DNA of 25,240 bases from a virus. Made by a program: the position numbers and the translations under genes. Positions 3,895-24,610 of this stretch are shown one piece after another. The stretch covers positions 1 to 25,240 of IMG/VR virus record IMGVR_UViG_3300025449_000050. One strand, given 5' to 3'. The stretch's first letter is position 1; the number at the start of each line of letters is the position of its first letter. The notes under the pieces are model-generated. The model worked only from the letters and a program-made list of their open reading frames with translations. It did no database searches and was not told the DNA's origin.

Positions 3895-4317
3895 TTAGAT
3901 AAATGCTTTAATGTCACGAGGGTCACCAGTGACTTTACCAATGAGTTCATGATCATTAAAGAAAGTAAACAGACATTTGCCATTTAGTCCATTCGCATCT
4001 GTAAAATCAATTTCCCATCTATCACCACCCCACTTAGGCACACGAACATATTCACCCACTTGTGCCCATGAGCCCTCAGGCCATGACTCCATGGTGTCAC
4101 GTTTCTTAAATGCCAAAGGACCAAGAGCAATTACTTTTCCGACTTGTGTATTCCACTTTTCGGTTTCTTTGGTCTCTTCAGGCAATACAATCCCAGAAGC
4201 AGTCACTTTGTCTTTCACAGCTCTAAGCTGTACAAGTACTCTGCCACCATAGGGTGCCATTAATGGATCTATACTTGGAAACGCTTCTTCAAGCGTCTGT
4301 TCGATATCATTCGACAT
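3895..4317 (-). CDS. GroES-like co-chaperonin (Cpn10 family)
   Basis: A 140-residue protein, predicted to cap the host GroEL ring during folding of phage proteins. After a ~20-residue N-terminal extension it follows the GroES plan: strand GGRVLVQLRAV, mobile loop KVTASGIVLPEE with the GroEL-contacting I43-V44-L45, the strand QVGKVIALG, then a G-x-Y-V-R-V-P segment in the barrel. It is longer than GroES (97 residues), with an insertion around residues 66-85. It sits two genes from the portal and just before the scaffold candidate, like phage co-chaperonins that help fold the capsid protein (T4 gp31 is the precedent). No GroEL gene is in this window, so it would work with the host chaperonin. 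The start overlaps the preceding gene by 11 bases. Confidence 0.85.
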   Translation of the reverse strand: MSNDIEQTLEEAFPSIDPLMAPYGGRVLVQLRAVKDKVTASGIVLPEETKETEKWNTQVGKVIALGPLAFKKRDTMESWPEGSWAQVGEYVRVPKWGGDRWEIDFTDANGLNGKCLFTFFNDHELIGKVTGDPRDIKAFI

Positions 4318-4492
4318 CTTGATTTTCCTCTTCTATGAGTTGGTTGATTAAATTCAAGGCTTCATCCAAGCCTTGGTGTTGACCGACTAGGCGCTGGTAA
4401 GTCTCAAAATTGATGGCATACCCTTGTACAAGGGAGTCAGCAATCTCGACTTGCTTTTGCTTTATCCGTCCGATGAGATCAGAAATCCGCAT
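4307..4492 (-). CDS. Small helical phage protein, function unknown
   Basis: A 61-residue protein with heptad-like Leu/Ile spacing (ISDLIGRIKQKQVEIADSL) and an acidic C-terminus, probably two helices. It contains the pattern Y-x-x-L-V-G-Q-x-x-G-L-D-E-A-L seen in small proteins of phage head operons. Its ATG shares one base with the stop of the preceding KGG-repeat gene (TAATG), and its end overlaps the GroES-like gene by 11 bases, so it is translationally coupled on both sides. No named family is recognised. Confidence 0.7.
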   Translation of the reverse strand: MRISDLIGRIKQKQVEIADSLVQGYAINFETYQRLVGQHQGLDEALNLINQLIEEENQDVE

Positions 4493-4782
4493 TAGCGGCC
4501 CCGACCAGATGACTTCTTCATAGGCGCAATAATGACTGCCATACCGCCTTTGGCATGACCACCTTTTTTCATTGTAGCAATTTTACCTGTGGGCTTGCCA
4601 ATGATTGGTGTTTTTGCCACTGCTGGCAGATTAGCCACTTTAGACTCAGGGATTGCACCCTTGTTTGCTATACCACCTTTGGCATAATGATGCTTTTTGG
4701 CAACACCGCCTTTTTTCAAATGGTTGGCTTCACCCTCGCCATGCATAGCGATACGTTTGTGCATGTTAATTGCTTCAGACAT
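4492..4782 (-). CDS. Basic KGG-repeat protein, function unknown
   Basis: A 96-residue, strongly basic, low-complexity protein. It carries four spaced copies of a K/A-K-G-G-x-A motif (KKGGVA, AKGGIA, KKGGHA, AKGGMA) in two pairs, plus a basic tail ending SSGRGR. It has no cysteines, membrane segment or recognisable enzyme domain. Similar Lys-Gly-Gly-rich proteins occur next to portal genes in environmental phages. It overlaps the end of the portal gene by 8 bases and is coupled to the 61-residue gene behind it. The composition suggests nucleic-acid or polyanion binding inside the head, or a disordered assembly peptide; both are inference. Confidence 0.7.
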   Translation of the reverse strand: MSEAINMHKRIAMHGEGEANHLKKGGVAKKHHYAKGGIANKGAIPESKVANLPAVAKTPIIGKPTGKIATMKKGGHAKGGMAVIIAPMKKSSGRGR

Positions 4783-7303
4783 TTGGATTTCCCCCTAAGT
4801 TTGTTTGGAGTTGGTTTTGAGCATCGAGGACAGTTTGCAGTTGCTCATGTTGCAATTGTGCCGCATCTCTAGTTAGCTCTGCGGACTTAATTCTCTCGGC
4901 AGTTAGATTATTCTCTGTATTCATCACTACATCGGACTGTAATCTAGATTGCTTCTCTTGTGCAATGGTTTGCATGTCCTGAGCCTTCAACTGAATCTCA
5001 GCTTTATCACGAGCCGCTTTCCGTTGTGTTTCAGCCATAGAAGTTTGGACCAGAGCTTGTACAGATGGGTCAGTTGGTTGCTGTGATTGCTGCAATTGTT
5101 GCATCATCTTCACGAGTTGTGCAATCTGAGGCTGCAGTTGAGCAAATTGCTCTTCTGTGTCCTTATTAACATGCTGCGCACTTACAGCCAACAACTGCTG
5201 AGCTTCTTTCATCATCGGTTGGACTTTTAATGCGTTAAAAGGTTCATGAAGGGCCACAGATGCATACGTGTCAATCTGATTTAAGTACCATAAGGTAATA
5301 TGTTGTTTTATGTGCTCTAATGCTGCAGGGATGAATTTCGGGGCAATAATTGGGTTAGATCCAAGTACTGGGTTCATCGCATAGGCCAAATGTGTTTGCA
5401 AATGTGCCATATGGTCCTGATGTGGGTATGCGCCGGCTGGTTTTCCTAGTGTCATGGACACATTTTCCAATGCAGGGTTCATATCTTTCACTTCTTCAGG
5501 GTCAGGAAGCACTGCATTGACATCTGGGAGCTTAATTTGCTTCAGAATCCGCTTCTCTACTTCAAGTCGGTTGTAGAGATCGGGGTTTGCTTGTGCTCTT
5601 GCCGCAAGTGTTTGAATCTGTGCATACCTCTGACTCTCTGCGAAGATATGAGGGTCAGAAACCGGAACAATGTCCGTATTGGACTCAAAATCATCAACCG
5701 AAATGTCGAGATCTCTAACAATTTCACCTTTTCTTTGCTCATCGAGGTACCACCTGTTCAATCTAGCTAAGATCTTTAAGACTCTCTTTTGACTGTCATG
5801 CAATCTGGCATGAATTGAGCTAAAAACTGCTGCACCTTGCTCAATCAATGCTTGAGCAGTGCCGACTGGCATGTTATTGCTAGCATCGGCAATCTTTTCT
5901 TCACTTGTAGTTACTACGCCCTTGGCTGCATCAGTTAGCCAGCCTAGAAGTTGGAACAGAACAGGTGAAGGTTGTGGGAAAGGTACTTGCATGGCAATCT
6001 TACGAATGTCATCTACTCCTGGAGCCCCCTCAATCTCGGCAACTTGTGTAGGTTCGATAACTGTAGTTTGCCCAGAGATCTTTCCGCCTTTAAGCTTTAA
6101 CATTGTAGGAGCAGTTACAATGTGTGCTGAGTCTAGTAGCGCACGTAATGCTCCGGTAAGGGCTGCGGACAATCCGCCAATGAGATGAGGGAGACCAATC
6201 GCATATGCTCCCCTCCAAGGTATAAACTTGAACTCAACCAGCCAATCCAAGTTAGACATTGTTTCATCGCCGTCCTCCCAGTTACGATACAAACCAACAA
6301 CCGCACGCTCATTTTCATCGATCATTAGTATGTAAGGAGCTCTTTCACTCTTTGAGTAAGTATCATCCTCTAACTCTAACCAAGTACGAATGTGAAATAC
6401 ACGTCTAACACCATCAATGTTAATGCTTTGTGGCGTCTTACCTTCAATCTTATTAGTGGCTTTTTGTGCTTTAGTTTCATCAGGCTCTTGTGGCAATCTA
6501 TAGATGTCTAAATCACGATATAAGCCTGTATTGACACGAATCTCATACATCTCTTGAGTAATGTCTTGGACTTCAGTGACTCGTGATGCTGTATAGAAAT
6601 TACCTGCAGCAAATGGCAAATAAATGTTATCAATAGGTACAAACTCGGCACATGGGCGTTTCTTTTGTTCGTCCCACCATAGCTTGATGTATTGACTACC
6701 ACCAAGAGGCAACTGTGTAAGCATTTGTTCTTGCTCATCACGATACTCTTCAATCTGCTCAGTCAACTGCCAGTTCATATAGTCACGTTTGCGCTCAGCC
6801 TTAGCTGTCTTGGCATCATCAACTTCACCGATAATCTTAGTTTTAACAGGACCATCTGGCGGAAAGAGTTCTTTAATTGCTCTTGCCGCAAAGTCCACAC
6901 AAGCCTCAGCCATAACAGGGTGCACAACTTTAGATGCACCCATGAACTGTGCACCACCTGGGGCATCATGCCCTAGTCCAGTACGGCGAATACCATCTTC
7001 ATATTGCTTATCACGATCTTCACGAGCTTCTTTATCTTTCTCAATTAGATCTAAGTACTTTAGAGCAATAGAATTAAGCTCTGAAATATCAAGCGATTCG
7101 GCAAGATTTTCGTAAAAGTCAGGCGACTCTTCAGGGCCTTTAAGGTCATCCATTCGCACAATGGCAGATCCGTCAGGCAATTCCTCAACATCAGGAATCT
7201 CCTCAATGATCTCCATAATGGATTCATCTTCATTAATCGAAGGCTCTTGCTCAGGCCCGATAAATCGATTGAAGTCTTGAGGGATAGGCATTTCTGTAGC
7301 CAT
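4775..7303 (-). CDS. Portal protein (head-to-tail connector)
   Basis: An 842-residue protein, predicted to form the dodecameric portal ring through which DNA is packaged and ejected. The N-terminal ~70 residues are very acidic. The conserved portal core begins near residue 75 and includes APGGAQFMGASKVVHPVMAE (about 114-133), followed by a helix ending in a F-P-P-D-G-P turn. This is typical of large P22/N4-type portals. A W-R-G-A-Y-A-I-G-L-P segment and a G-A-L-R-A-L-L-D helix lie near residues 360-390. The last ~120 residues are Gln-rich coiled coil, consistent with a C-terminal barrel or crown. Its size is at the upper end for portals (P22 gp1 is 725). An AAAGGT site precedes the ATG. It sits after the giant protein gene and before the capsid genes. 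Confidence 0.9.
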   Translation of the reverse strand: MATEMPIPQDFNRFIGPEQEPSINEDESIMEIIEEIPDVEELPDGSAIVRMDDLKGPEESPDFYENLAESLDISELNSIALKYLDLIEKDKEAREDRDKQYEDGIRRTGLGHDAPGGAQFMGASKVVHPVMAEACVDFAARAIKELFPPDGPVKTKIIGEVDDAKTAKAERKRDYMNWQLTEQIEEYRDEQEQMLTQLPLGGSQYIKLWWDEQKKRPCAEFVPIDNIYLPFAAGNFYTASRVTEVQDITQEMYEIRVNTGLYRDLDIYRLPQEPDETKAQKATNKIEGKTPQSINIDGVRRVFHIRTWLELEDDTYSKSERAPYILMIDENERAVVGLYRNWEDGDETMSNLDWLVEFKFIPWRGAYAIGLPHLIGGLSAALTGALRALLDSAHIVTAPTMLKLKGGKISGQTTVIEPTQVAEIEGAPGVDDIRKIAMQVPFPQPSPVLFQLLGWLTDAAKGVVTTSEEKIADASNNMPVGTAQALIEQGAAVFSSIHARLHDSQKRVLKILARLNRWYLDEQRKGEIVRDLDISVDDFESNTDIVPVSDPHIFAESQRYAQIQTLAARAQANPDLYNRLEVEKRILKQIKLPDVNAVLPDPEEVKDMNPALENVSMTLGKPAGAYPHQDHMAHLQTHLAYAMNPVLGSNPIIAPKFIPAALEHIKQHITLWYLNQIDTYASVALHEPFNALKVQPMMKEAQQLLAVSAQHVNKDTEEQFAQLQPQIAQLVKMMQQLQQSQQPTDPSVQALVQTSMAETQRKAARDKAEIQLKAQDMQTIAQEKQSRLQSDVVMNTENNLTAERIKSAELTRDAAQLQHEQLQTVLDAQNQLQTNLGGNPNV

Positions 7304-7321: not shown

Positions 7322-10300
7322 TTAATCAGGTTCATTATATGGATCATACCCATGATCACGAATATAATTTGCTAAGCGTCGTCTTTCATCATTAGTAAGA
7401 CGGTTTAACCTTCTACTTATTGTGTTGCGCTCGACCATATCTGCAAGTTCTTCATCAGTGTACTCATTAGGGTCAAACTCATCATTCTCCATTGCATGAC
7501 CAATTGCATCGTTTAACATATGATGAAGATCTTGCAATGATCTACCTTGTTCTGGTTGTGGTATAGCACCTATGACTTCACCTAAGTCATCTATTGCTCG
7601 ACGTAATAGTTGTAAGTAGTCATCATAAGCACTTCGACTAACCCTTAATGCTCCAGGCGTTGTCGCTGCAACTTCATTTCTTCTAGTGTTGAGTTGATCT
7701 AGTGCAGACTGAGCTATTTCATCTACACTATAACCACCTCCAAACATGTTGTTTACCATGTCAGTAACTTGATCAATAGTTGACTGCATTAGTCTATGGC
7801 CATCAGGTGTAGAGGCAAGTTGCAAAGGCTCTGTATACGCATTTACGACATCTCGATTTTGCTGATTTTGCCCAAACGCTGCAGGTGTTGGAGTTCCGCT
7901 TATTCTATTCAAATGACTATGTAAGTCTTCTAAATCTGAAATAGCTCTTTCTTGTTCTTCTAGGTCAAATCCCATATCCCCAGGAATTACTTGAATATCA
8001 GTGATTAGTCCTGCAATATGGTCTTGCAATGATTCAATTATTTCTGGAATAGGGGTTCCTGCCGTAATGCCATCATCTAACATCTGATTGTACATTTGTG
8101 ACATATCATCCCAACGCTCAAGTGTGTCATTGATCACTTGACGGATTTCTCGATGTTCTTGTGTAGCTTGTGGCAATTGCTGATTAGCGCCATGCATGTT
8201 ATCAGGCTCAAAGTTAAATTCATCTTCAGGCACAGGAAGTCTGTGTTGTAATTCACGAGCTAGCAACTCCCGTTGACGCATCGAAAAATCTTGATAAAGC
8301 TCATTACCAGGCACTTCATCCCCATTACGAAGTGAATGTATGATGTCAGCAACTTCATTATGGTCAAAGCGACCAAAAATATTATTAGCTGTCTGATCAA
8401 CTTCATCAGCCTGTCTATGACCCATTGCATCGCGTAAATGTGGAGTAGTTTGGACTTGCAATCTTTGCATGGTCTGTTGTAGTGCTGTAGGCTCACGATA
8501 AGGCTCTACAGCTTGATCCTCATTGCCTGTATGCAAGAACATAATGTTGTTTGCAAGATCATATAGAGCTGCTCTTACAGTCTGAGATTCTTGAATTGAA
8601 GCTGCATCTCTAACCAGCGTGGCAGTTCGAACAGGGTTTGCAAACGTATCATGCTGTGTTGCCGCTTGCATAAGCACATTTCTAATAATATCAGCGCCTA
8701 AATTGCCTTCGGGTGTGCCAAGATTTTCAAGCCTCGAAATACTACTATTAACACGATCGCCAAGTTGACGATAGAAAGCTTCACGCGGTGTTTCATTAGC
8801 TGGTTCATTTCCAGCTTCAGGCGCATGCTCTTCATTCATATGAGTTGCTGTATTAACAGCATCTAAATGCGCTTCAAGCATTTCACGCAATTGTGTTAAA
8901 CGTTCAGGGTGTTGTGCTGCTCGTAACTCCCATCTAATGTTTTGACCTGCATCTGGGTCATCTAGCATACGTAACATAACACCAAGATGCTCAGCCATGT
9001 TAGGAAGATCTTCATTCGCCATTTCTTGAATAGTGTCTTGATAAGCGCTTCGTACACGAGCAGAATCAGCCATTGCTCTAATAGCAGGAATAGGCTGCAT
9101 TGCTCTTTCGAGAACTAGGTTGTTTGATAATTCAACAAACCGACGATGTACTTGCTCTTCAGCTTGTTCACGAAGCCCAGGAGGCAATTGACGAAATGTG
9201 GGGTGATCATATTGCCCATTAGCCAACAGAAACCTAGTTGTTTGCAATCCTTGAATATTATGGTCTTGATCTGTACGCTCAACGTTAATTAGCTCACGAG
9301 CTAATTGATCAACTTGCTCAGGCGTAAATGAAGGCGGTTGAGCTGGTGGTGCATTAAGATGATGAATATGTTCGCTAAAAGCATCGCCATGTCGACCAAG
9401 CATATCAGCAACTTCACTAAGCTCATCATTTGTTCGAACGCCCATTTCTTGAGGATCCATATATTCAGGATTCATATGACTACTTGCGCCTAGCAAATTA
9501 GTCTCAAGATCTTCGCTGTCAAGACCCTCTTGGCTTAAGTCTTGTAAAAAAGTTATATATGCTTGTCTGACTCGATTATTAGATGCACTTGCCAAAATAT
9601 CTGGAATAGGCTCAGTTGGACCGTTAAGACGAATAGCTTGAGCATTAGGGCTTAAGCCTGTTAAGTCTTGCGCCGCTGCCGTATCAATCATACGATTGAT
9701 TCTTAAGTCTATATCATGTAGTTGATGATATAAATCAGCATGATGTGTGGCATAATCAGGATCATCTCTATCAAGCTCGACTATTTGCTGACTTAAGCTT
9801 TGCTGTTGTGCTCGTAAGTAGTTAATAGAATCTGCTTGTCTTGCATTTGTAGGTGCAGGTATTTCTTTATTCTTTAGCGCAATTAAGTCTGAATCTAGCA
9901 CAAAGCGTGGAAGTGGGTGAGCTGCAACTGCTCTTTGGAAGTCTTCCGTCTTCATACCGGCTCTAATTGCTAATGATCTTACTGGCGTTCTTGCTGTGTC
10001 ATAAACACCAGACTTACTATCATCGCCTAAAGACCGAATCTCATTTGAGTGCGCATTTAAAACATCTCTAAAAGCGGCTCTATACTTTGGATCGATTTGC
10101 GCATTTCGATATTGTGTAGCAAAACCAACAATATATGTAGGACCACCTGGTGAGTCTGATTTATTTTTAAGCTCAATGTTTCCAACAGGCCAACCAGTCT
10201 CGGCATCCCTCATTATCAATTGCTTAGAATGCCCATCAATCACATCCCGAATATAAGATGTCATAGGTGCATTTTGTGTTGTTGGAAACCGCTTACCTGT

Positions 10301-12394
10301 GGCTACATCAAGAATCGGTGTGTAACGTCGTGTATCGCCTGTCCACAAATGCTTATAGTTGCAGCTATCAAGCCCTTTAGCCGCACAAAAATCATTGATC
10401 TCAGTTTCCATTGACAAATGATGAAGCACATCGTCAGGGTTTGTGCTTTGATCAAGAGTAAGAAGCTTGACATTGCCAAACCGCTGAGAATCAGGGATTG
10501 CATTTAAGTCTTTCTTAAGACGATCTTCGACGGCTATCTTACGCCCTATTGATGCTTTCTTTTCAGCCAGTTCTTGAGCAATTCGATCTTTTGTTTGATC
10601 AACCACAAACTTATCAATTGGGGTTCTTGCAAGCTCATTTGCACTCATCTTACCCGTTAAGATGTTATCAAACAAGCCTTTACCAACTGCTGACAACCCA
10701 AGTGAATATAAGCTAGTCGGATTTATGTCATAAACAGGTGCATTCGGTGTATTGTCAACTATATTCTTAAGCTGTGGATAAAACTGCTTTTCATAAACAG
10801 GAATTTCATCCCACATCTTTTGTGCTGTTTTCATTGTCAAACTAGAATCAGCAATGTTCTCATAATCATGAGCAAGCTTTAAGTTGTCAATGTCGCCATG
10901 TTTTGATTGTATTTGTGACTCAAGCTTTTTGATTTGCTTAAGTAAATCTTTTTTCCCAGGAAGCGAAATAGCAGTAACGCCTTGCTCTTGTGCTTGACGA
11001 TCCAATGCCGTACTTTGAGTTTGTAGATCATCTAGCTGTTTATGCAAATCTCTAAGTTCAGTTTGTTTAGCATCTAGCTTAGGCTGAACTGTGCCGAACG
11101 GCATATCAGGATTAAATGCTCGTCTGCTTTTTTCTATACTACCATTTGGAACAGTAGAGTTGACAATATTATCACGAGTCAGCATTGTAATGCCTTTGCC
11201 TGCTTGAGTAAGCAAAGGATCTTTTTCAGTTCCTACATACTTCATGATGTAGTTCTTAAATGGGCCTTGCAATGCTTTTACAGCAGTATCGTAATTGTCT
11301 TTAAACTGATCAAGTGTTGGCAAACCATTCTTAGTGGCATATTCATTTAAATGCTCAGCTCGTTTTTGCTCACTCTCGTCATGCGGATACTTTAAGTCAA
11401 ATGCATGACGAGCATCGAATTGGCTTAAACCAGGAAACTCTTGCTGTATTTTTTGATTTCTAAAATCGATAAATTGACTATCATGCGGAGTATCTTCAAG
11501 TATCTTACTTTGATACAAATCATTAAGCTCATAAGTTGTAGGTGTTGAGCTATAAGGCATGATATCGCGAATAACGCTATCAATACCGCCTTTCCCTAAC
11601 GGAACTTTATTTGTAGTTGCCGAAACGACGGGTGATCCCTCAGGTCTTACAGCATACAAACTTGTCGTAGGTTGCAAAGCACCAGGAACACCTGGAACAG
11701 GCGGTAAGCCTTGCATCTTGCGCTTAGTCATAATATCGCCAATTGTGTCCGCAGTCTTTTGTGCCTTAACACCTAATGTATCTTCGCCAAGTATGTTTTG
11801 TCTTTTAACGCCTGATTGTGCATTCCTAAAGTCTTGTGGTAAGTCTTTAAGCTCTTGACCGACAATTTGCGCTTTACCGATTGTGGCTCTTACGTCACTT
11901 GGCGATACAAGTGGTCTACGTTCTTCAAGCCCAGTTATATTGCCAATTACGCCGCCTCTTGGGCTCATAGGCATCATAGGAACGTCTTCCAGCATTGTGC
12001 CAAGATTACTTTCAAACTGTTGGCCAAGTGGGGTTTGTGGCGGCTTAGCATGCATTTTGCTAAAATCCGTCGCCAATTGAGTTGCTGTATCGAGTCCTGT
12101 TGTGCTTACTTTGCCTGTGTTAACATAGTTGCCAATGTCACTAGCAATCTCAGGAGCTGATCTAACAAGCCCTTGAGCAGCGCCTAATGCGCCAATTGCC
12201 GGATTTACAACAGTCGTTCTTGCTAAGTCTTGCATGGACTTAACAAGCATTAGTGGATTGTAGTTTGCGGCTACATTTTTAATTGTGCTTATAGCTGAAT
12301 CTAATGGTGAAGCCGCTGGTTGTGGAGTCGATAATCCGCCAGCCAAAGGTGGCACTGATTGAGTACTATTGTCATCCCATTCATTAAGCGGCAT
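7322..12394 (-). CDS. Giant multidomain phage protein (1690 aa), PcfJ-like segment and helical repeats
   Basis: The longest gene here. Its ATG overlaps the TerL stop by 11 bases and has AAGGGTG upstream; the portal gene starts 18 bases after its stop. Visible regions: residues 1-130 Ala/Gly-rich; about 437-505 a coiled coil; about 655-780 a segment containing RDVIDGHSKQLIMRDAETG, then VGNIELKN and later DPKYRAAFRDVL. This last part resembles the C-terminal part of PcfJ-like domains found in phage and plasmid polyvalent proteins, but without their usual cysteine. From about 900 to 1690 there are degenerate helical repeats; the clearest pair is PIPDILASASNNRVRQAY (about 928) and PIPAIRAMADSARVRSAY (about 1101). 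No protease, lysozyme or polymerase motif was found. Ejected internal virion protein is the leading inference; an injected effector-type polyvalent protein is the alternative. Confidence 0.8.
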   Translation of the reverse strand: MPLNEWDDNSTQSVPPLAGGLSTPQPAASPLDSAISTIKNVAANYNPLMLVKSMQDLARTTVVNPAIGALGAAQGLVRSAPEIASDIGNYVNTGKVSTTGLDTATQLATDFSKMHAKPPQTPLGQQFESNLGTMLEDVPMMPMSPRGGVIGNITGLEERRPLVSPSDVRATIGKAQIVGQELKDLPQDFRNAQSGVKRQNILGEDTLGVKAQKTADTIGDIMTKRKMQGLPPVPGVPGALQPTTSLYAVRPEGSPVVSATTNKVPLGKGGIDSVIRDIMPYSSTPTTYELNDLYQSKILEDTPHDSQFIDFRNQKIQQEFPGLSQFDARHAFDLKYPHDESEQKRAEHLNEYATKNGLPTLDQFKDNYDTAVKALQGPFKNYIMKYVGTEKDPLLTQAGKGITMLTRDNIVNSTVPNGSIEKSRRAFNPDMPFGTVQPKLDAKQTELRDLHKQLDDLQTQSTALDRQAQEQGVTAISLPGKKDLLKQIKKLESQIQSKHGDIDNLKLAHDYENIADSSLTMKTAQKMWDEIPVYEKQFYPQLKNIVDNTPNAPVYDINPTSLYSLGLSAVGKGLFDNILTGKMSANELARTPIDKFVVDQTKDRIAQELAEKKASIGRKIAVEDRLKKDLNAIPDSQRFGNVKLLTLDQSTNPDDVLHHLSMETEINDFCAAKGLDSCNYKHLWTGDTRRYTPILDVATGKRFPTTQNAPMTSYIRDVIDGHSKQLIMRDAETGWPVGNIELKNKSDSPGGPTYIVGFATQYRNAQIDPKYRAAFRDVLNAHSNEIRSLGDDSKSGVYDTARTPVRSLAIRAGMKTEDFQRAVAAHPLPRFVLDSDLIALKNKEIPAPTNARQADSINYLRAQQQSLSQQIVELDRDDPDYATHHADLYHQLHDIDLRINRMIDTAAAQDLTGLSPNAQAIRLNGPTEPIPDILASASNNRVRQAYITFLQDLSQEGLDSEDLETNLLGASSHMNPEYMDPQEMGVRTNDELSEVADMLGRHGDAFSEHIHHLNAPPAQPPSFTPEQVDQLARELINVERTDQDHNIQGLQTTRFLLANGQYDHPTFRQLPPGLREQAEEQVHRRFVELSNNLVLERAMQPIPAIRAMADSARVRSAYQDTIQEMANEDLPNMAEHLGVMLRMLDDPDAGQNIRWELRAAQHPERLTQLREMLEAHLDAVNTATHMNEEHAPEAGNEPANETPREAFYRQLGDRVNSSISRLENLGTPEGNLGADIIRNVLMQAATQHDTFANPVRTATLVRDAASIQESQTVRAALYDLANNIMFLHTGNEDQAVEPYREPTALQQTMQRLQVQTTPHLRDAMGHRQADEVDQTANNIFGRFDHNEVADIIHSLRNGDEVPGNELYQDFSMRQRELLARELQHRLPVPEDEFNFEPDNMHGANQQLPQATQEHREIRQVINDTLERWDDMSQMYNQMLDDGITAGTPIPEIIESLQDHIAGLITDIQVIPGDMGFDLEEQERAISDLEDLHSHLNRISGTPTPAAFGQNQQNRDVVNAYTEPLQLASTPDGHRLMQSTIDQVTDMVNNMFGGGYSVDEIAQSALDQLNTRRNEVAATTPGALRVSRSAYDDYLQLLRRAIDDLGEVIGAIPQPEQGRSLQDLHHMLNDAIGHAMENDEFDPNEYTDEELADMVERNTISRRLNRLTNDERRRLANYIRDHGYDPYNEPD

Positions 12395-13817
12395 ATGGGT
12401 TCACCCTTCTAGGCTTGGTATCATCCACATAAAGATCTGGGTCATTATACAAATAATCCAAGACAAGGAAACCACTGTCTCGCAAATATCGTAAAGCTTG
12501 GCTGGTTGAGTCTACAAGGTCGTCATGTCGGACTTCAGGGAAAGCACAAAGCTGATTGATCAACGGTTCGGCCCAGTCACGAGCCATGCCTTCACGCGAC
12601 ATAGACTCAGGAATATACACCAAGCCTTTTTGAATCAGAGGCGCCACGATATTCAGTCGCTGTGTTTTGTCTGCATTCCCTGGGTTATAAGCACGGACTG
12701 GCAATCCGGCTCTTTGTAGGTCTTGAATCAGTGAAATACCTGCTGACTTGTCCTCAATCAGAACTAAGTCAACCTTCTTGCCTTGTCCGAATTCGTCATT
12801 GTCACCGTAAATCGTACCGAACTCTTCAAGCACACGAGGCCGAAGGTCTGGGTATTTCATGTGCTCGTCCCATGCATCGATTAGCATAACAGACATCGGC
12901 TTGTCGGTTGGTTTAAAGATCCCCCAAACTGTGCAAGCAGTCGGGTCATTGGCTGTCTTATCAGATGTAGCACAGTCGTAGCTTTGTATGACGTACTGAA
13001 ACTGAGGCAACGGCTTTTCGGCCGGCCAAAGTCTTAGCCATTGACGTTTAACGATGCCTGATTCTTCTGGGTCGATAATCTCAGCATGAATCTCTTGTCG
13101 GCCAAGCGTTGTGCCTTCATACTGTAAGATCTGCTGTTGGAACGATGGAGCTAAGTTCTTTAAGTTGTCATACGTTGATGCTGTTGTGTAGCATACGTCT
13201 TCACCGTCACGATTTGCTAAGTCAACAATCAAAGGCTTTGGCTTTGGTGTTGTTGTACAGATGAGACGAGGCTGCTTACCGAGACGCATGCCGAATTGCA
13301 GCATGTTCCATGATTCGTCAAGGTAATGCCAAGCTGCAAGCTCATCAAGCCACCCGCCATGAAACTGCGGACCGCGAAAGCGCTCAGGCTCTGATGCAGG
13401 AATGCCTTTGATGATTGAGCCGTTCTTTAAGTTAATCTCATGCAGAGATTTATAGTAAAAGTCGATAAGCTCAGTCGGCATAACGTTTAGCAGCCCTGAA
13501 TCGCCCTCAAAGCACACATCACGAACGTCACCGCTCGTTGGAGCCGAAACTAGCCATCTTGTCTTTGGTTGTGTCCAAGCTGCCCACCAAGTCCACTCAG
13601 CCGCGCACCGAGTTTTGCCAGCACCACGACCTGCTAAAAGTAACCAGATACTCCACCAATCGCCCTTAGGCGGTATTTGATGATCACTAGCTATAGCAAG
13701 CCATTTGTTTCGTGCTTTCAGCGCTGCTTTCCATTCCGGGGACGCTGTACTTAGATTAGGTCCGGTTTTTAGACGTTGATCAACGTGCTTAGCTATTTTC
13801 TCGATTGTCGTTGTCAT
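12384..13817 (-). CDS. terL: Terminase large subunit (DNA-packaging ATPase and nuclease)
   Basis: A 477-residue motor protein that docks on the portal, pumps DNA into the head and cuts the concatemer. Walker A is LLAGRGAGKT (about 58-68) and Walker B is GGWLDELAAW (about 154-163, catalytic Glu present). The RNase H-like nuclease domain follows, with acidic residues in QSYDCATSDK (about 277), LVLIEDKSAG (about 350) and HDDLVDSTSQAL (about 429-440), so all three metal-binding positions appear to be present. The length matches compact Terminase_6-type large subunits. The start at 13817 overlaps TerS by 29 bases and has only a weak ribosome site, suggesting coupling. Both catalytic domains look intact. 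Confidence 0.95.
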   Translation of the reverse strand: MTTTIEKIAKHVDQRLKTGPNLSTASPEWKAALKARNKWLAIASDHQIPPKGDWWSIWLLLAGRGAGKTRCAAEWTWWAAWTQPKTRWLVSAPTSGDVRDVCFEGDSGLLNVMPTELIDFYYKSLHEINLKNGSIIKGIPASEPERFRGPQFHGGWLDELAAWHYLDESWNMLQFGMRLGKQPRLICTTTPKPKPLIVDLANRDGEDVCYTTASTYDNLKNLAPSFQQQILQYEGTTLGRQEIHAEIIDPEESGIVKRQWLRLWPAEKPLPQFQYVIQSYDCATSDKTANDPTACTVWGIFKPTDKPMSVMLIDAWDEHMKYPDLRPRVLEEFGTIYGDNDEFGQGKKVDLVLIEDKSAGISLIQDLQRAGLPVRAYNPGNADKTQRLNIVAPLIQKGLVYIPESMSREGMARDWAEPLINQLCAFPEVRHDDLVDSTSQALRYLRDSGFLVLDYLYNDPDLYVDDTKPRRVNPYAA

Positions 13818-14253
13818 CTTGTCTTATGCTAAGAATTTCGTTCATTAATTCCTCAGCAAAATCATGTACAACATCGACCTGAATAGCCCCGTTGTTTTTG
13901 CCTGTAACTTCAAGCTTATTGTTTTCGCGATATTTATGTGGAAAACGAGCTGCCATCGACCGCGACCACAGCGCTGTGTTGATTCTGTTCCCGCCCGGTC
14001 TCTCGATCATATGATCTAAAGCAAGTTTTTCAAAGAAAAGCATCTCTTCTTTTTTAGCTTCTTCTAAGGCCGTGAAAAAATCTGGATTCGCTTCAGCCCA
14101 ATTGCCTAAAGTTTGCCATGTAATGCCAAGCTCAGATGAAATAGCTTCTCGGCTATAACCTTTTTTGCCTAAGTCAATAGCAATTTGGCAAAACGACGGA
14201 TCATACTTAGATGGCCGTCCAACTGGTTTTTTGGGTATAGGTTGTGTGCTCAT
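13789..14253 (-). CDS. terS: Terminase small subunit
   Basis: A 154-residue protein predicted to recognise phage DNA and recruit TerL. The N-terminus reads VGRPSKYDP, followed by a helix-turn-helix (about residues 34-52, YSREAISSELGITWQTLGNW). A helical oligomerisation region follows and then a short acidic tail. This is the usual design of helix-turn-helix terminase small subunits. It is the first gene of the packaging module and lies directly after the repeat node at 14254-14528. No Shine-Dalgarno sequence precedes the ATG. The nearest upstream signal is TACAAT, 7 bases before the start, which could serve a leaderless transcript. Confidence 0.88.
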   Translation of the reverse strand: MSTQPIPKKPVGRPSKYDPSFCQIAIDLGKKGYSREAISSELGITWQTLGNWAEANPDFFTALEEAKKEEMLFFEKLALDHMIERPGGNRINTALWSRSMAARFPHKYRENNKLEVTGKNNGAIQVDVVHDFAEELMNEILSIRQDDNDNRENS

Positions 14254-14324
14254 GTGTAAGATTGTACATCAAACTTGAGAAAAGTGTGGAAAAACGGCAA
14301 TAGTTGTAAGAGAGAAACTTTAGT

Positions 14325-14353
14325 ATTATACGGTAAACTAAAGTAATAATAGT
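14325..14353 (-). promoter_or_regulatory. Candidate promoter for the packaging/head operon
   Basis: A perfect TATAAT lies on the minus strand at 14330-14325, pointing toward TerS, with a poor -35 match around 14348-14353 at 17 bases. The expected transcript has a leader of about 64 bases. The repeat elements at 14351-14372 lie directly on or upstream of the -35 position. A protein binding them could therefore activate or repress this promoter. The weak -35 suggests activator dependence, which is inference. Confidence 0.5.
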
Positions 14354-14383
14354 TACATCTAAAGTTACATCTAACCAGAAAAC

Positions 14384-14403
14384 TATATACGACGACGTAT
14401 ATA
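14384..14403. other. Perfect 8-bp hairpin in the AT-rich core
   Basis: TATATACG (14384-14391) and CGTATATA (14396-14403) form a perfect 8-bp stem with an ACGA loop, inside the core of the repeat node. There is no T-tract, so it is not a terminator. It could be a single-strand initiation or nicking site, or a protein site. Confidence 0.6.
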
Positions 14404-14528
14404 TCTATATATAAATAATATTTAAATATATATGTAATTATTGTAACTATGTATTTATCGTTTAAAATCAACAACTTGGCTAGCATTTTGATGTAACTTT
14501 GATGTAACTTTAGATGTAACTTTTAATA

Positions 14529-16628
14529 CTATAGTTCTATTTCTCTCTTGATCGCAGCATCTGTATTTTCTGACAATTTTGACAGATCTCCGTGTTTTTG
14601 AAAGTTACATAATTTAGCCTTTGAAGATGTAACTTTGAAAATGGTAAATCTATGTGATTTTCCATTTAATCTTATGACTTTATTGGCTTCGACTTCACCA
14701 TGGCTTAACAAAGCTTTACGAATATATTGAGCTTTTGCTCTAACTTCATGGCCCCAACGTTCGCATAGTACCTCCAAATGCGATGGTGTAAATGCTGCTA
14801 TTCCATCAAGATTCTCAACTACCCAGTCGGCAAGTTCACTTGCAAAGGCTTCGATCGGACTCTTACTGGCTTGTATAGCAACTTGTTTGTACTTAGTTTC
14901 TGGTGCTGGTTTGGCAGGATCAAAGTTACTGATGTCTCGGTTGTAGTACCAATTTAGCACAATCCCAAAGCCATTTTGCTGTCTTGCCCATTGCATCAGC
15001 TTTACAACTTTAGGGTGTGTCTCGGCATTGGTTAAAGTTTCAGGCTTAAAGATGGCTTCACGTCTTGCATTGTCACCCATTCTTGTGATGTAAGGCTTAT
15101 TTGACGTAAAGATAAAGTTCATAAAATTCTCAATATTGTATTGAGCGCCATACTTGTTATTGATGGCAATTTCTTTGCCTGTGATCATGCTCTTTAACTG
15201 TGCTGAGTGATCCTCACGATCCGATGATGGCTCATTGATCACAATCAGAATCTTATTTTTAAAGATGCCATTGAAATTACCAAATAGCTCATCCGGTCCG
15301 ATAATGATGGCTGGACCGTTTTCACCGAGACCTAGCATTTCGGCTATAAATTCAGCAACGGCTGACTTACCAATACCCTCAACATTACTCACAAACTGTG
15401 GGGTTGTGTTATTTCTTTTGTGCGGAAACTGGACTATGTTAGCAACCCAGTCATGCCAATAATCAGCAAAAGACGGTTCATCTCTAAAAAAGTACTTACA
15501 AAATTCCAAATACTCAGTTGGATCGCCCTCAATCGGATCATGAAGCCAATTTCCTAAATAGTTATAACAGCCGTCTGGTGTGATCTTTAAACCTTGGTAT
15601 TGCGGAAAAACACCAACTTTCCTGATATCGCATCTTTTGCGCCACTTTTTATACTCTTCCATCAACACATATTCACGTGTCACTACTTTTGGCGGTTGAT
15701 TAGGTCTGGTCTGTACTTGTGTAGACTGCAAAAAGATATGCTGAGCACTATCTATCTTTGCCTTTTGGAAGCTCATGATATGGCCATCATCGATACGAAT
15801 CACATCGCCATTGTACAGCGCATACTTAGTGCTAAACTCATGAAGCCTAACATCCAAGCTGTCAACACCATTCATCACAACTGACGTACTGGCTACCACA
15901 TCGGACAAAGCCTTACCATCATTTAGATGATCATCAATTGCATACTTACTGCCTTTACCTGGGCCAAAGCGGCCGACGCGGCACAAATGCACTTCAGCAC
16001 CAAGTCCACGTAGCACAATGGCTAGCTTAGTCTCGGCCAAAGCTACCTGCTCATTTGGCTCACCATCATCCTTGGCACCATCATAGTCAAAAATGATATG
16101 CACTTTTCTATGTGTAACATTGAAATTAGTTTTCTTTTGCCATTGTATTTGCATCAAGTCTTTGTGCAATTGCAAGCCACGTTTATCGGTCCAACTAGTC
16201 ACTCCAGCCAAGCCAACACATGCATAGTTCGAGCCCTCGGCTTTAACAGCCTTTGTGATTGCCCAAGCTTTGAATTCACCCTCTGTGATGATGATTGGTA
16301 TATCAACATTTGAGATGACTTGCCGCCATTGTGTTGTTGGTGGAAAATAAATGTGACTGCCACTAGCCCTTGCTTGGCTGTATTTCATCTTAGTGCGTGG
16401 CACTAAAAGCCTGACACGTGTAAAACCGGTGTCATTGCCATCGATATCAAAGTACGGTATTTTGACCGCCCATTCATGAGTGTGCCCTAAAAGGGACTTG
16501 GTCTCATCCTTATCAAGAAAAGTTAAACCTAAAGTTTTAATGTCATTATCGTCGAATTTTCGTGCATTTAAGAAGTCATGATATAATTCTAATGGTTGTG
16601 TTGTATGAGACGAAAATCCCATTGACAT
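14529..16628 (-). CDS. Primase-helicase (Toprim-like DUF3854 plus SF3-type helicase, DUF5906-like)
   Basis: A 699-residue replication protein. The N-terminal half holds a Toprim-like domain with the acidic motif IIITEGEFKAWA (about 110-121) and the D-x-D motif HIIFDYDGAKDD (about 168-180). The C-terminal half is an AAA+/SF3-type helicase: Walker A VEGIGKSAVAEF (about 414-426), Walker B KILIVINEPSS (about 455-467) and sensor segment NFIFTSNKPYITRMGDNARR (about 504-523), including a candidate arginine finger. This two-part design is common in phages that lack a DnaB-type helicase. An AAAGGA site lies 7 bases before the ATG. Two further copies of the node repeat lie inside its 3' coding end. It is on the minus strand, opposite to the DNA polymerase. 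Confidence 0.88.
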   Translation of the reverse strand: MSMGFSSHTTQPLELYHDFLNARKFDDNDIKTLGLTFLDKDETKSLLGHTHEWAVKIPYFDIDGNDTGFTRVRLLVPRTKMKYSQARASGSHIYFPPTTQWRQVISNVDIPIIITEGEFKAWAITKAVKAEGSNYACVGLAGVTSWTDKRGLQLHKDLMQIQWQKKTNFNVTHRKVHIIFDYDGAKDDGEPNEQVALAETKLAIVLRGLGAEVHLCRVGRFGPGKGSKYAIDDHLNDGKALSDVVASTSVVMNGVDSLDVRLHEFSTKYALYNGDVIRIDDGHIMSFQKAKIDSAQHIFLQSTQVQTRPNQPPKVVTREYVLMEEYKKWRKRCDIRKVGVFPQYQGLKITPDGCYNYLGNWLHDPIEGDPTEYLEFCKYFFRDEPSFADYWHDWVANIVQFPHKRNNTTPQFVSNVEGIGKSAVAEFIAEMLGLGENGPAIIIGPDELFGNFNGIFKNKILIVINEPSSDREDHSAQLKSMITGKEIAINNKYGAQYNIENFMNFIFTSNKPYITRMGDNARREAIFKPETLTNAETHPKVVKLMQWARQQNGFGIVLNWYYNRDISNFDPAKPAPETKYKQVAIQASKSPIEAFASELADWVVENLDGIAAFTPSHLEVLCERWGHEVRAKAQYIRKALLSHGEVEANKVIRLNGKSHRFTIFKVTSSKAKLCNFQKHGDLSKLSENTDAAIKREIEL
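14601..14636. repeat. Two further iteron copies inside the primase-helicase 3' end
   Basis: AAAGTTACAT (14601-14610) and its inverted partner AGATGTAACTTT (14625-14636) lie 14 bases apart within coding sequence. They reproduce the repeat of the adjacent node, bringing the local total to seven copies. They encode part of the FKVTSSKAKLCNF stretch of the protein. Confidence 0.6.
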
Positions 16629-17944: not shown

Positions 17945-18313
17945 ATGTCATATCTTACACACAATGAAATAAGCGTAAATAGAAATGGTACTAGTCTAAA
18001 AGGCTATATTGAGTGTGACTACTATTTATTAGTGACCTTATTTGGTCAGCCTTTTAATGGTGACACCACTAAATCAGATGCTGAGTGGCTAGTTAAATTT
18101 GATGATGGTGTGGTAGCATCCATTTATAACTACAAAGACGGTTATAACTATTGCGGTCATGCCGGTACACCAACCGAAAAAATTAAAACTTGGCATGTAG
18201 GTGGCTTTAGTGATACTGCCGTCTATCATGTACAGCATGCAATTGATGAATACGTTCTGGATTGCTTAGAAAGCACATACAACAGCAATCATTCTATGTT
18301 TGAGGAGGCATAA
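17945..18313 (+). CDS. Conserved phage protein, function unknown
   Basis: A 122-residue protein from the ATG at 17945, chosen because AAAGGAAAA lies about 8 bases upstream and because related phage proteins begin near this point. Earlier in-frame starts (ATG 17843, GTG 17828) would add a basic, unconserved extension. The recognisable core is a K-S-D-A-E-W-L-V-K-F-D-D-G-x-V-A-S-I-Y-N-Y pattern (about 42-62), then W-H-V-G-G, a mixed beta/alpha fold common in small early phage proteins. It is the first gene of the plus arm. Its last bases (GAGGAGG) form the ribosome site of the next gene. No enzymatic motif is seen. Confidence 0.8.
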   Translation: MSYLTHNEISVNRNGTSLKGYIECDYYLLVTLFGQPFNGDTTKSDAEWLVKFDDGVVASIYNYKDGYNYCGHAGTPTEKIKTWHVGGFSDTAVYHVQHAIDEYVLDCLESTYNSNHSMFEEA

Positions 18314-24403: not shown

Positions 24404-24610
24404 ATGAACAAGACTGAAGTAGTACCACTTAAACGCGCCAAAGTTAAACGTATTACTGTGTATGTGCCTACAGAGATTGACCGTATTAGGGATAGACTGC
24501 AGGATGACACAGGTGTCAAAATGTCATATGTACAAGTGTTTAGATTTCTAATTCACTTTTACATGCAAAGAGCTAATGAACCAAAAACACGATGGGCAGC
24601 ACTAAAATGA
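24404..24610 (+). CDS. Ribbon-helix-helix-like small protein
   Basis: A 68-residue basic protein with AAGGA 6 bases before the ATG. It has a short strand KRITVYVPTEID (about 15-26) followed by two helices (DRIRDRLQDDTG and SYVQVFRFLIHFYMQR). This strand-helix-helix order and size fit Arc/MetJ-type DNA-binding dimers, and closely similar small proteins occur in many phages. It may regulate early genes or act as a DNA-binding helper; no target can be seen. Its stop overlaps the next ATG. Confidence 0.7.
   Translation: MNKTEVVPLKRAKVKRITVYVPTEIDRIRDRLQDDTGVKMSYVQVFRFLIHFYMQRANEPKTRWAALK

Follow-up and report, generated by a model that had tools for sequence, protein, structure and literature searches.

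The window analyzed here is the whole 25,240-base stretch of virus record IMGVR_UViG_3300025449_000050, and the element under study is an array of short repeats (iterons) directly 3′ of a primase-helicase gene, which we read as a probable phage replication origin. An earlier note on this DNA had described iterons around an AT-rich core and proposed either an origin or a late-gene switch. Portal and terminase late genes run leftward; past the primase-helicase gene and a DUF932 gene lie genes that point rightward, among them those for a family A DNA polymerase and an exonuclease. Profile matches show that a terminase, a portal and a DNA polymerase are encoded within the window itself. The primase-helicase gene (14529-16628, minus strand) encodes 699 amino acids and the proposed initiator. 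The gap that holds the array is the sole gap separating it from the late genes, the nearest of which is the terminase small subunit gene (terS; 13789-14253, minus strand; phrog_309, E 8.5e-22), a neighbor outside the origin.

DUF3854 was matched at residues 101-233 of the primase-helicase and DUF5906 at residues 414-523 (66.5 bits against a cut-off of 27.6). A profile match to the C-terminal region of the NrS-1 primase (PDB 6k9e/6k9c) spans residues 390-604 (E 2.1e-10), and conserved columns hold EGIGKS, NEPSSD and TSN stretches, which we take to be Walker A, Walker B and sensor motifs. The helicase part is, judged from sequence, of the SF3/D5 type. Residues 575-699 (14532-14906, minus strand) are predicted by AlphaFold2 to form a winged-helix domain (pLDDT 82.1, pTM 0.76), the proposed iteron reader. 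The modeled order is helix-strand-helix-helix-strand-wing-strand, with residue 651 in the first wing strand. The best viral structure match of this domain is a primase/polymerase (E 5.3e-4); in a sequence search of the PDB with the domain alone, the best E was 0.079.

Architecture of the array and its conservation in relatives

Every element that the earlier note had named around the AT-rich core was recovered: AGTTACATCTAA at 14351-14362 and 14363-14374 (plus strand), three TTTGATGTAACTTT-type copies in the other orientation inside 14486-14523, arms of 39 nt (14336-14374 and 14498-14536) that are 90% complementary, outer arms AAGAGAGAAA and TTTCTCTCTT at 14308-14317 and 14540-14549, and an 8-bp hairpin (14384-14391 and 14396-14403). 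The clustering exceeds chance. Allowing at most one mismatch, AAGTTACATC occurs 8 times in the window against 2.4 expected, a number reached in 0 of 100 shuffles, and 7 of the 8 copies fall in 14350-14635. Likewise, 8 of the window's 16 GTTACA/TGTAAC words lie inside 400 bp from 14352, and the next densest spot holds 1. Three copies are additional to those noted before, two of them within the primase gene (14602-14611 and 14626-14635) and one next to the core (14442-14447).

Read in the direction of the primase gene, and with iterons called by repeat search and mismatch count, the array begins with the in-gene iterons AAGTTACATC (14626-14635, minus strand) and, in the opposite orientation, AAGTTACATA (14602-14611, plus strand). 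After the stop codon comes set A, three minus-strand iterons at 14490-14499, 14501-14510 and 14513-14522 (14490-14522 overall). Between sets A and B lies an IHF-like site, AATCAACAACTTG (14466-14478, plus strand), called by match to WATCAANNNNTTR, which we assumed as the IHF consensus; this consensus was found at the same spot in 14 of 40 loci, where shuffles predict 0.36. Set B (14434-14447, minus strand) consists of a GTTACA word at 14442-14447 and a degenerate ATTAC word at 14434-14438, beside the AT-rich core; relatives mostly have 2-3 words there, in forward orientation. The core itself (14400-14441, no strand assigned), with 2 G/C per 42 bases, is the proposed unwinding element. Next come a recurrent CGTATATAGTTTTC box (14378-14391, minus strand), seen in the sequences of relatives with the AT core on one side and set C on the other; set C, two reversed iterons at 14350-14359 and 14362-14371 (14350-14371, plus strand) that face sets A and B; and terS. 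With the loose pattern used, the box was matched in 40/42 loci, in one of them at a wrong place. On the best reading, array and putative origin extend from about 14350 to 14635 and overlap the primase-helicase gene at its 3′ end.

Relatives were collected in two scans of viral contigs (54-100% identity; the best 80 of 207 were kept in the second scan). After contigs ending inside the gene were omitted and loci with more than half of their 12-mers in common were treated as duplicates, 84 locus rows gave 42 distinct loci. A later set of 29 new contigs, less 1 without a stop and 16 duplicates, added 12 loci for a total of 54. A separate scan of genome contigs matched 98 stretches, none of them a relative. 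Each locus was assigned to a word class by simple word counts; for one (L142), with 128 nt of downstream sequence, the class comes from 3 words.

Conservation of the repeats beside the same neighbors, which the earlier note had proposed to look at, was clear: a word array lies directly 3′ of the primase-helicase gene in 42/42 distinct loci, each with at least 4 words of its own class in the 300 nt past the stop. In 6/6 long records, the window included, the array is the densest word cluster (8-12 words per 400 bp vs. 1-5 for the next). Orientation was scored in primase direction in 40 loci (L051 and L088 were dropped, as the box pattern was not matched; L050 is the misplaced one). Words ahead of the core are forward (112 vs. 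12) and words past it reverse (90 vs. 1). Set B words are typically spaced 8-10 bp apart, and at least 2 words are found in set B in 36/40 loci and in set C in 37/40. Two details of the earlier description look incidental. The hairpin is present in the window but not conserved: among 49 loci the mean longest perfect arm was 4.96 vs. 4.10 in shuffles, and 7 or more pairs were found in 6/49. The outer arms are likewise present, but the nearest differing relative (L006/L039), compared by eye, keeps one TAGTATTA arm without its partner and without GAGAGAAA.

Concerted respelling of the words and co-variation with the primase-helicase

Three spellings occur across the loci, GTTACA, ATTAC and GTAACA. 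The first count of 42 loci gave 16, 16 and 10, respectively; a recount that places L053 with GTAACA gives 11 for that class and, depending on the row, 15 or 16 for GTTACA. The fixed labels used later divide 53 tree loci into 19 GTTACA, 18 ATTAC and 16 GTAACA. Within a genome, the leading class accounts for 88% of array words. Mapped onto a tree built from primase residues 20-560, the class switches 11 times, and 7 of these switches are to or from GTAACA.

One close pair captures such a switch. Compared in 100-nt bins, L059 and L066 (the latter equal to L067 over the compared stretch) are 87-98% identical over most of the primase gene; identity drops to 84 and 77% over the final 200 nt of the gene and to 62% where the array begins, returning to 96-98% past it. 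In the aligned arrays, GTAACA-type spelling in L059 is replaced by GTTACA-type spelling in L066, which retains a single stray word of the GTAACA type; the AT core was kept while the words changed. The primases differ at 15/695 residues, 10 of which fall within residues 645-670, the predicted wing and the segment following it. These correspond to about 650-675 in the window, where the wing hairpin and the segment after it occupy residues 645-675 (14604-14696, minus strand). TerS is identical in the two (156/156 residues), and the DNA upstream of terS is also unchanged.

A single residue in this region follows the spelling. Residue 651 in window numbering is Val here (codon 14676-14678, minus strand) and Leu in all GTAAC-type relatives compared. 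Among 32 loci with the main C-terminal type, it is Leu in 11/11 of the GTAACA type and 0/21 of the others, and it is the sole column that separates the two fully. The residue had been chosen out of 382 variable columns, prior to the held-out test. Among 11 held-out loci of the main C-terminal type, Leu651 was found in 5/5 of the GTAACA type and 0/6 of the others, which had Val with GTTACA (4 loci) or Pro with ATTAC (2 loci). The state of residue 651 thus predicted the word in 11/11. The rule holds in 42/42 full-length loci and, in the tree-based test, in 7/7 independent pairs (sign test, p 0.016). The residue tests exclude loci with a second C-terminal type (10, later 11), and the tree-based test also excludes L029. 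A scan of 45 protein windows in 40 loci (L029 and L052, with partial proteins, were omitted) gave the highest partial correlations between protein divergence and word class, corrected for overall divergence, in the last two, residues 646-690 (0.26 and 0.30; next 0.21). Co-variation of this kind strongly suggests that the C-terminal winged helix of the adjacent primase-helicase is the iteron reader. The earlier note had proposed a phage or host protein as the binder and called it unknown; a phage protein is retained, and co-variation narrows it to this domain. The predicted recognition helix had been a candidate specificity element and was discarded, the signal lying in the wing and after it.

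The second C-terminal type has a longer wing-like stretch. It was seen in 10 of the first 42 loci (L065, L024, L079, L092, L095, L101, L027, L090, L085 and L099) and 1 of the 12 new ones, and accompanies arrays of the GTTAC and ATTAC types, laid out in the same way.

The words continue into the coding sequence. Over the final 165 nt of the primase gene, 66/71 words are of the locus's own class, and at least one such word is present in 40/42 loci; 20,000 permutations of the class labels over these loci reached at most 45 words and 27 loci. Permutation tests ignore the kinship of the loci, which is taken into account in the tree-based test alone. Word density per 165 nt is 1.57 at the gene end vs. 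0.15 in the remaining gene. When synonymous codons were shuffled within the genes of 50 loci, 18.7 own-class words were expected (standard deviation 3.6, maximum 29, 300 shuffles) vs. 82 observed, so the in-gene words exceed what the protein sequence alone would produce; other-class words, in the same shuffling, fell below expectation (12 vs. 28.1). The words sit at differing codons in different clades and switch through silent changes, as with Val GTA in L059 and GTT in L066. Own-class in-gene words were found in 50/50 loci whose array abuts the gene and in 0/4 loci with an insert of roughly 150-200 nt between stop and array (L025, L027, L155 and L223, of 54), in which the words lie in or beside the insert. 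The insert group was defined after L025 and L027 had been seen to lack in-gene words; L155 and L223 were added later and showed the same pattern.

In L025, the insert includes a long inverted repeat, AGCAAATTGATCAC... / ...GTGATCAATTTGC, which may be a terminator or else a small mobile repeat.

A proposed self-loading origin, its rivals and its known counterparts

The array, its place and orientation, the concerted change of its words, the retention of in-gene words at the DNA level and the co-change of the wing all support, by sequence comparison, a phage replication origin whose iterons are recognized by the primase-helicase's own C-terminal winged helix. We give this reading a probability of roughly 0.85, and the origin proposed in the earlier note is well supported. 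In the mechanism that we envisage, the winged helix of the primase-helicase (a TOPRIM-like primase joined to an SF3-type helicase) would bind the iterons, and the initiator would assemble on two inward-facing sets, one on each side of the AT-rich core. The core would melt between the facing assemblies, and the protein would load itself as helicase and provide primers at both forks to the family A DNA polymerase of the phage. The IHF-like site may bend the DNA between sets A and B. We infer melting, loading and initiation from the domain make-up and from the analogous PICI/SaPI, SCCmec and P4 systems discussed below.

Several observations weigh against this reading. The GC skew of the window and five long records does not turn where the array lies: its cumulative minimum is 2.4-3.4 kb away in the window and three records, near the change in gene direction, and 5 and 35 kb away in the other two. 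A Foldseek search of the C-terminal domain against the PDB returned nothing at E 0.001 or better, and structure matches in the PDB are weak (Z at most 5.5), although winged helices are frequent among them. In the predicted recognition helix (residues 612-645), protein divergence is uncorrelated with the word (partial r 0.07; up to 0.20 in permutations). The in-gene words lie over part of the protein stretch with the strongest co-variation, so that some protein changes there may follow from constraint on the DNA; the codon of residue 651 lies outside every in-gene word. Arrays are not pure, 12% of their words coming from another class. Beside distant primases (24-26% identity, given also as about 24-29% for the phages) the array is absent in 4 named cultured phages, and it is also absent in 3/11 metagenome-assembled contigs with such primases. 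One metagenome-assembled contig, L256, carries one 8-mer four times (0/200 shuffles) and no AT core; read by eye, one copy is at the primase end and the others are in the next small reading frame.

Control of transcription, in which the primase or another phage protein on the repeats would switch late (terS) or primase transcription, is improbable. The array does occupy the sole gap between the primase and the late genes, a conserved −10-like hexamer precedes the terS ATG by 5-7 nt in 29/52 loci, and origins and operators can coincide. The earlier note had placed its left iterons against the TerS promoter, but of 4 promoter-like sites in 14200-14720 (3.0 by shuffles) none lies over the left repeats, and the likely terS −10 is about 85 bp off. 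The array also extends into the gene end and is symmetric about the AT core, and in the L059/L066 pair the repeats all changed while the core, TerS and the DNA upstream of terS stayed constant, which speaks against the late-gene switch. Less probable again is a packaging site (pac or cos) or an operator bound by TerS. Pac sites are often near terS, and terS is found no more than 1500 nt downstream in 42/42 loci; since this is so in every locus, adjacency cannot decide. The respelling of a whole array beside an unchanged TerS (156/156) argues against it, as do an array-terS distance that ranges from 28 to 354 nt and the finding of own-class words in the first 165 nt of terS in 1/42 loci vs. 40/42 at the primase end. 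Moreover, the DNA upstream of terS holds no array in 3 named phages that have related terminase and portal but no such primase next to terS.

Plasmids also use iteron clusters as centromeres, and a partition or maintenance site of this kind, with a host factor or a small DNA-binding protein as its binder, is the least probable of these alternatives. A host factor is not expected as the reader, because the word was rewritten 11 times in the family together with the primase wing. The small proteins that the earlier note had listed as possible binders fare worse than the primase-helicase: by tblastn (E 1e-4), the winged-helix open reading frame (ORF) at 18300 is present in 3/5 long related records and the ribbon-helix-helix-like ORF at 24404 in 1/5, so that they are missing in 2/5 and 4/5, and the array is kept in 5/5. 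No par genes were noticed, though no search aimed at them was made.

The proposed origin read by the primase-helicase has close counterparts. In phage-inducible chromosomal islands and Staphylococcus aureus pathogenicity islands (PICI/SaPI; SaPIbov1, SaPI1, EcCICFT073), the initiator is a helicase, at times fused to a primase, the origin lies directly 3′ of its gene, and the C-terminal domain recognizes the origin (PMC6092414, PMC7581432). Two iteron sets surround an AT-rich region, gene and origin together drive plasmid replication, and the layout is described as private to satellites (PMC6092414). The loci studied here share the origin-like array 3′ of the proposed initiator gene and the two iteron sets flanking an AT core. 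They differ in the sequence of the words and in having iterons that continue into that gene. The PICI/SaPI elements are satellites, induced and packaged by a helper phage, but the phage records carry their own terminase, portal and polymerase; for this reason the window would work like a PICI replicon but is not a PICI.

P4 alpha comprises a primase, a helicase and a C-terminal winged-helix origin domain, and P4 has a separate ori. In NC_001609.1, alpha (4636-6969, minus strand, annotated as DNA primase) is directly followed on its 3′ side by crr (4291-4590), for which ten type 1 repeats of 8 nt are annotated, some in each orientation. The likeness is a primase-helicase fusion with an iteron region directly 3′ of its gene; the difference is that the annotation of crr gives two direct repeats of 120 bp and places no type 1 repeat within alpha. 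In SCCmec, the D5-type helicase Cch2 has a C-terminal domain that, when isolated, binds iterons lying immediately downstream of the helicase gene (PMC7581432). There, however, the iterons are three AAGTG copies, no two-sided layout is described in the cited passages, and the primase is a separate protein (PMC7581432). In lambdoid phages, iterons and an AT-rich tract overlap the coding sequence of O, the initiator that binds them (PMC7466680). The O gene thus shares iterons within the initiator's own coding sequence, but O is neither helicase nor primase, its origin is mid-gene and other loaders bring the helicase. For the NrS-1 polymerase, two copies of an 8-nt recognition sequence, not an iteron array, were described as a possible origin (PMC7102993). 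Its helicase part represents the one PDB family to which sequence search matched the phage primase-helicase.

Initiator helicases whose iterons lie 3′ of the gene are therefore already known as a kind. New in combination are its occurrence in terminase-bearing phages, origin words that double as initiator codons and are silently respelled in concert, and a wing residue that predicts the spelling. A literature search, which covered few subscription journals, found nothing on this phage group or on such a word-residue code. Tentatively, and at somewhat less than even odds, we propose a large family of terminase-bearing uncultured phages with a satellite-type self-loading origin, whose word was rewritten about 11 times across the whole array, codon-doubling copies included, and was tracked by a one-residue wing switch at 651 (Leu vs. 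Val/Met vs. Pro/Ala/Ser). If true, this would constitute a natural set of mutually orthogonal origins, driven perhaps by competition among co-infecting phages or by origin-stealing satellites. As a probable origin, the array extends the PICI/P4 origin layout from satellites to phages with their own structural genes. The pair with 15 residue differences and a wholly respelled array documents with unusual clarity how an initiator and its sites have changed together. How an initiator and a dozen sites shift specificity at once becomes directly testable with natural alleles. Words found both in a gap and at the end of the initiator gene, with a spelling that varies from relative to relative, also offer a way to spot origins in uncultured phages.

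Additional features of the window and its relatives

No Rfam match was found across the window, no tRNA in the window or in the records of G001 and G002, and no terminator-like site at the array region. The −10-like hexamer ahead of terS, TA[ACT]AAT, lies at most 24 nt from the ATG in 31/52 loci, and the window copy is TACAAT at 14261-14266 (minus strand). Its placement would put the transcription start at or adjoining the start codon, so that a leaderless late mRNA is possible.

Beyond set C, L053 has additional GTAAC/GTTAC words and two ATATTGATTTTAAACA stretches, as if the origin region were partly duplicated. In L043 (listed as L011), the array-terS gap of about 200 nt holds a T-arm-like GGTTCGATTCC in GC-rich, fold-back-like sequence; ARAGORN found no tRNA in its record.

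Elsewhere in the window, a 140-amino-acid ORF at 3895-4317 (minus strand) has by eye the look of a GroES-type co-chaperonin, and a "chaperonin 10 kd subunit" is annotated beyond the portal gene of the related record MW202545.1. An ORF of 1690 amino acids (7322-12394, minus strand) lies with the terminase large subunit on one side and the portal on the other. Its relatives in 4/5 long records match over only about 750-850 amino acids at 26-30% identity, and the neighboring genes are conserved.

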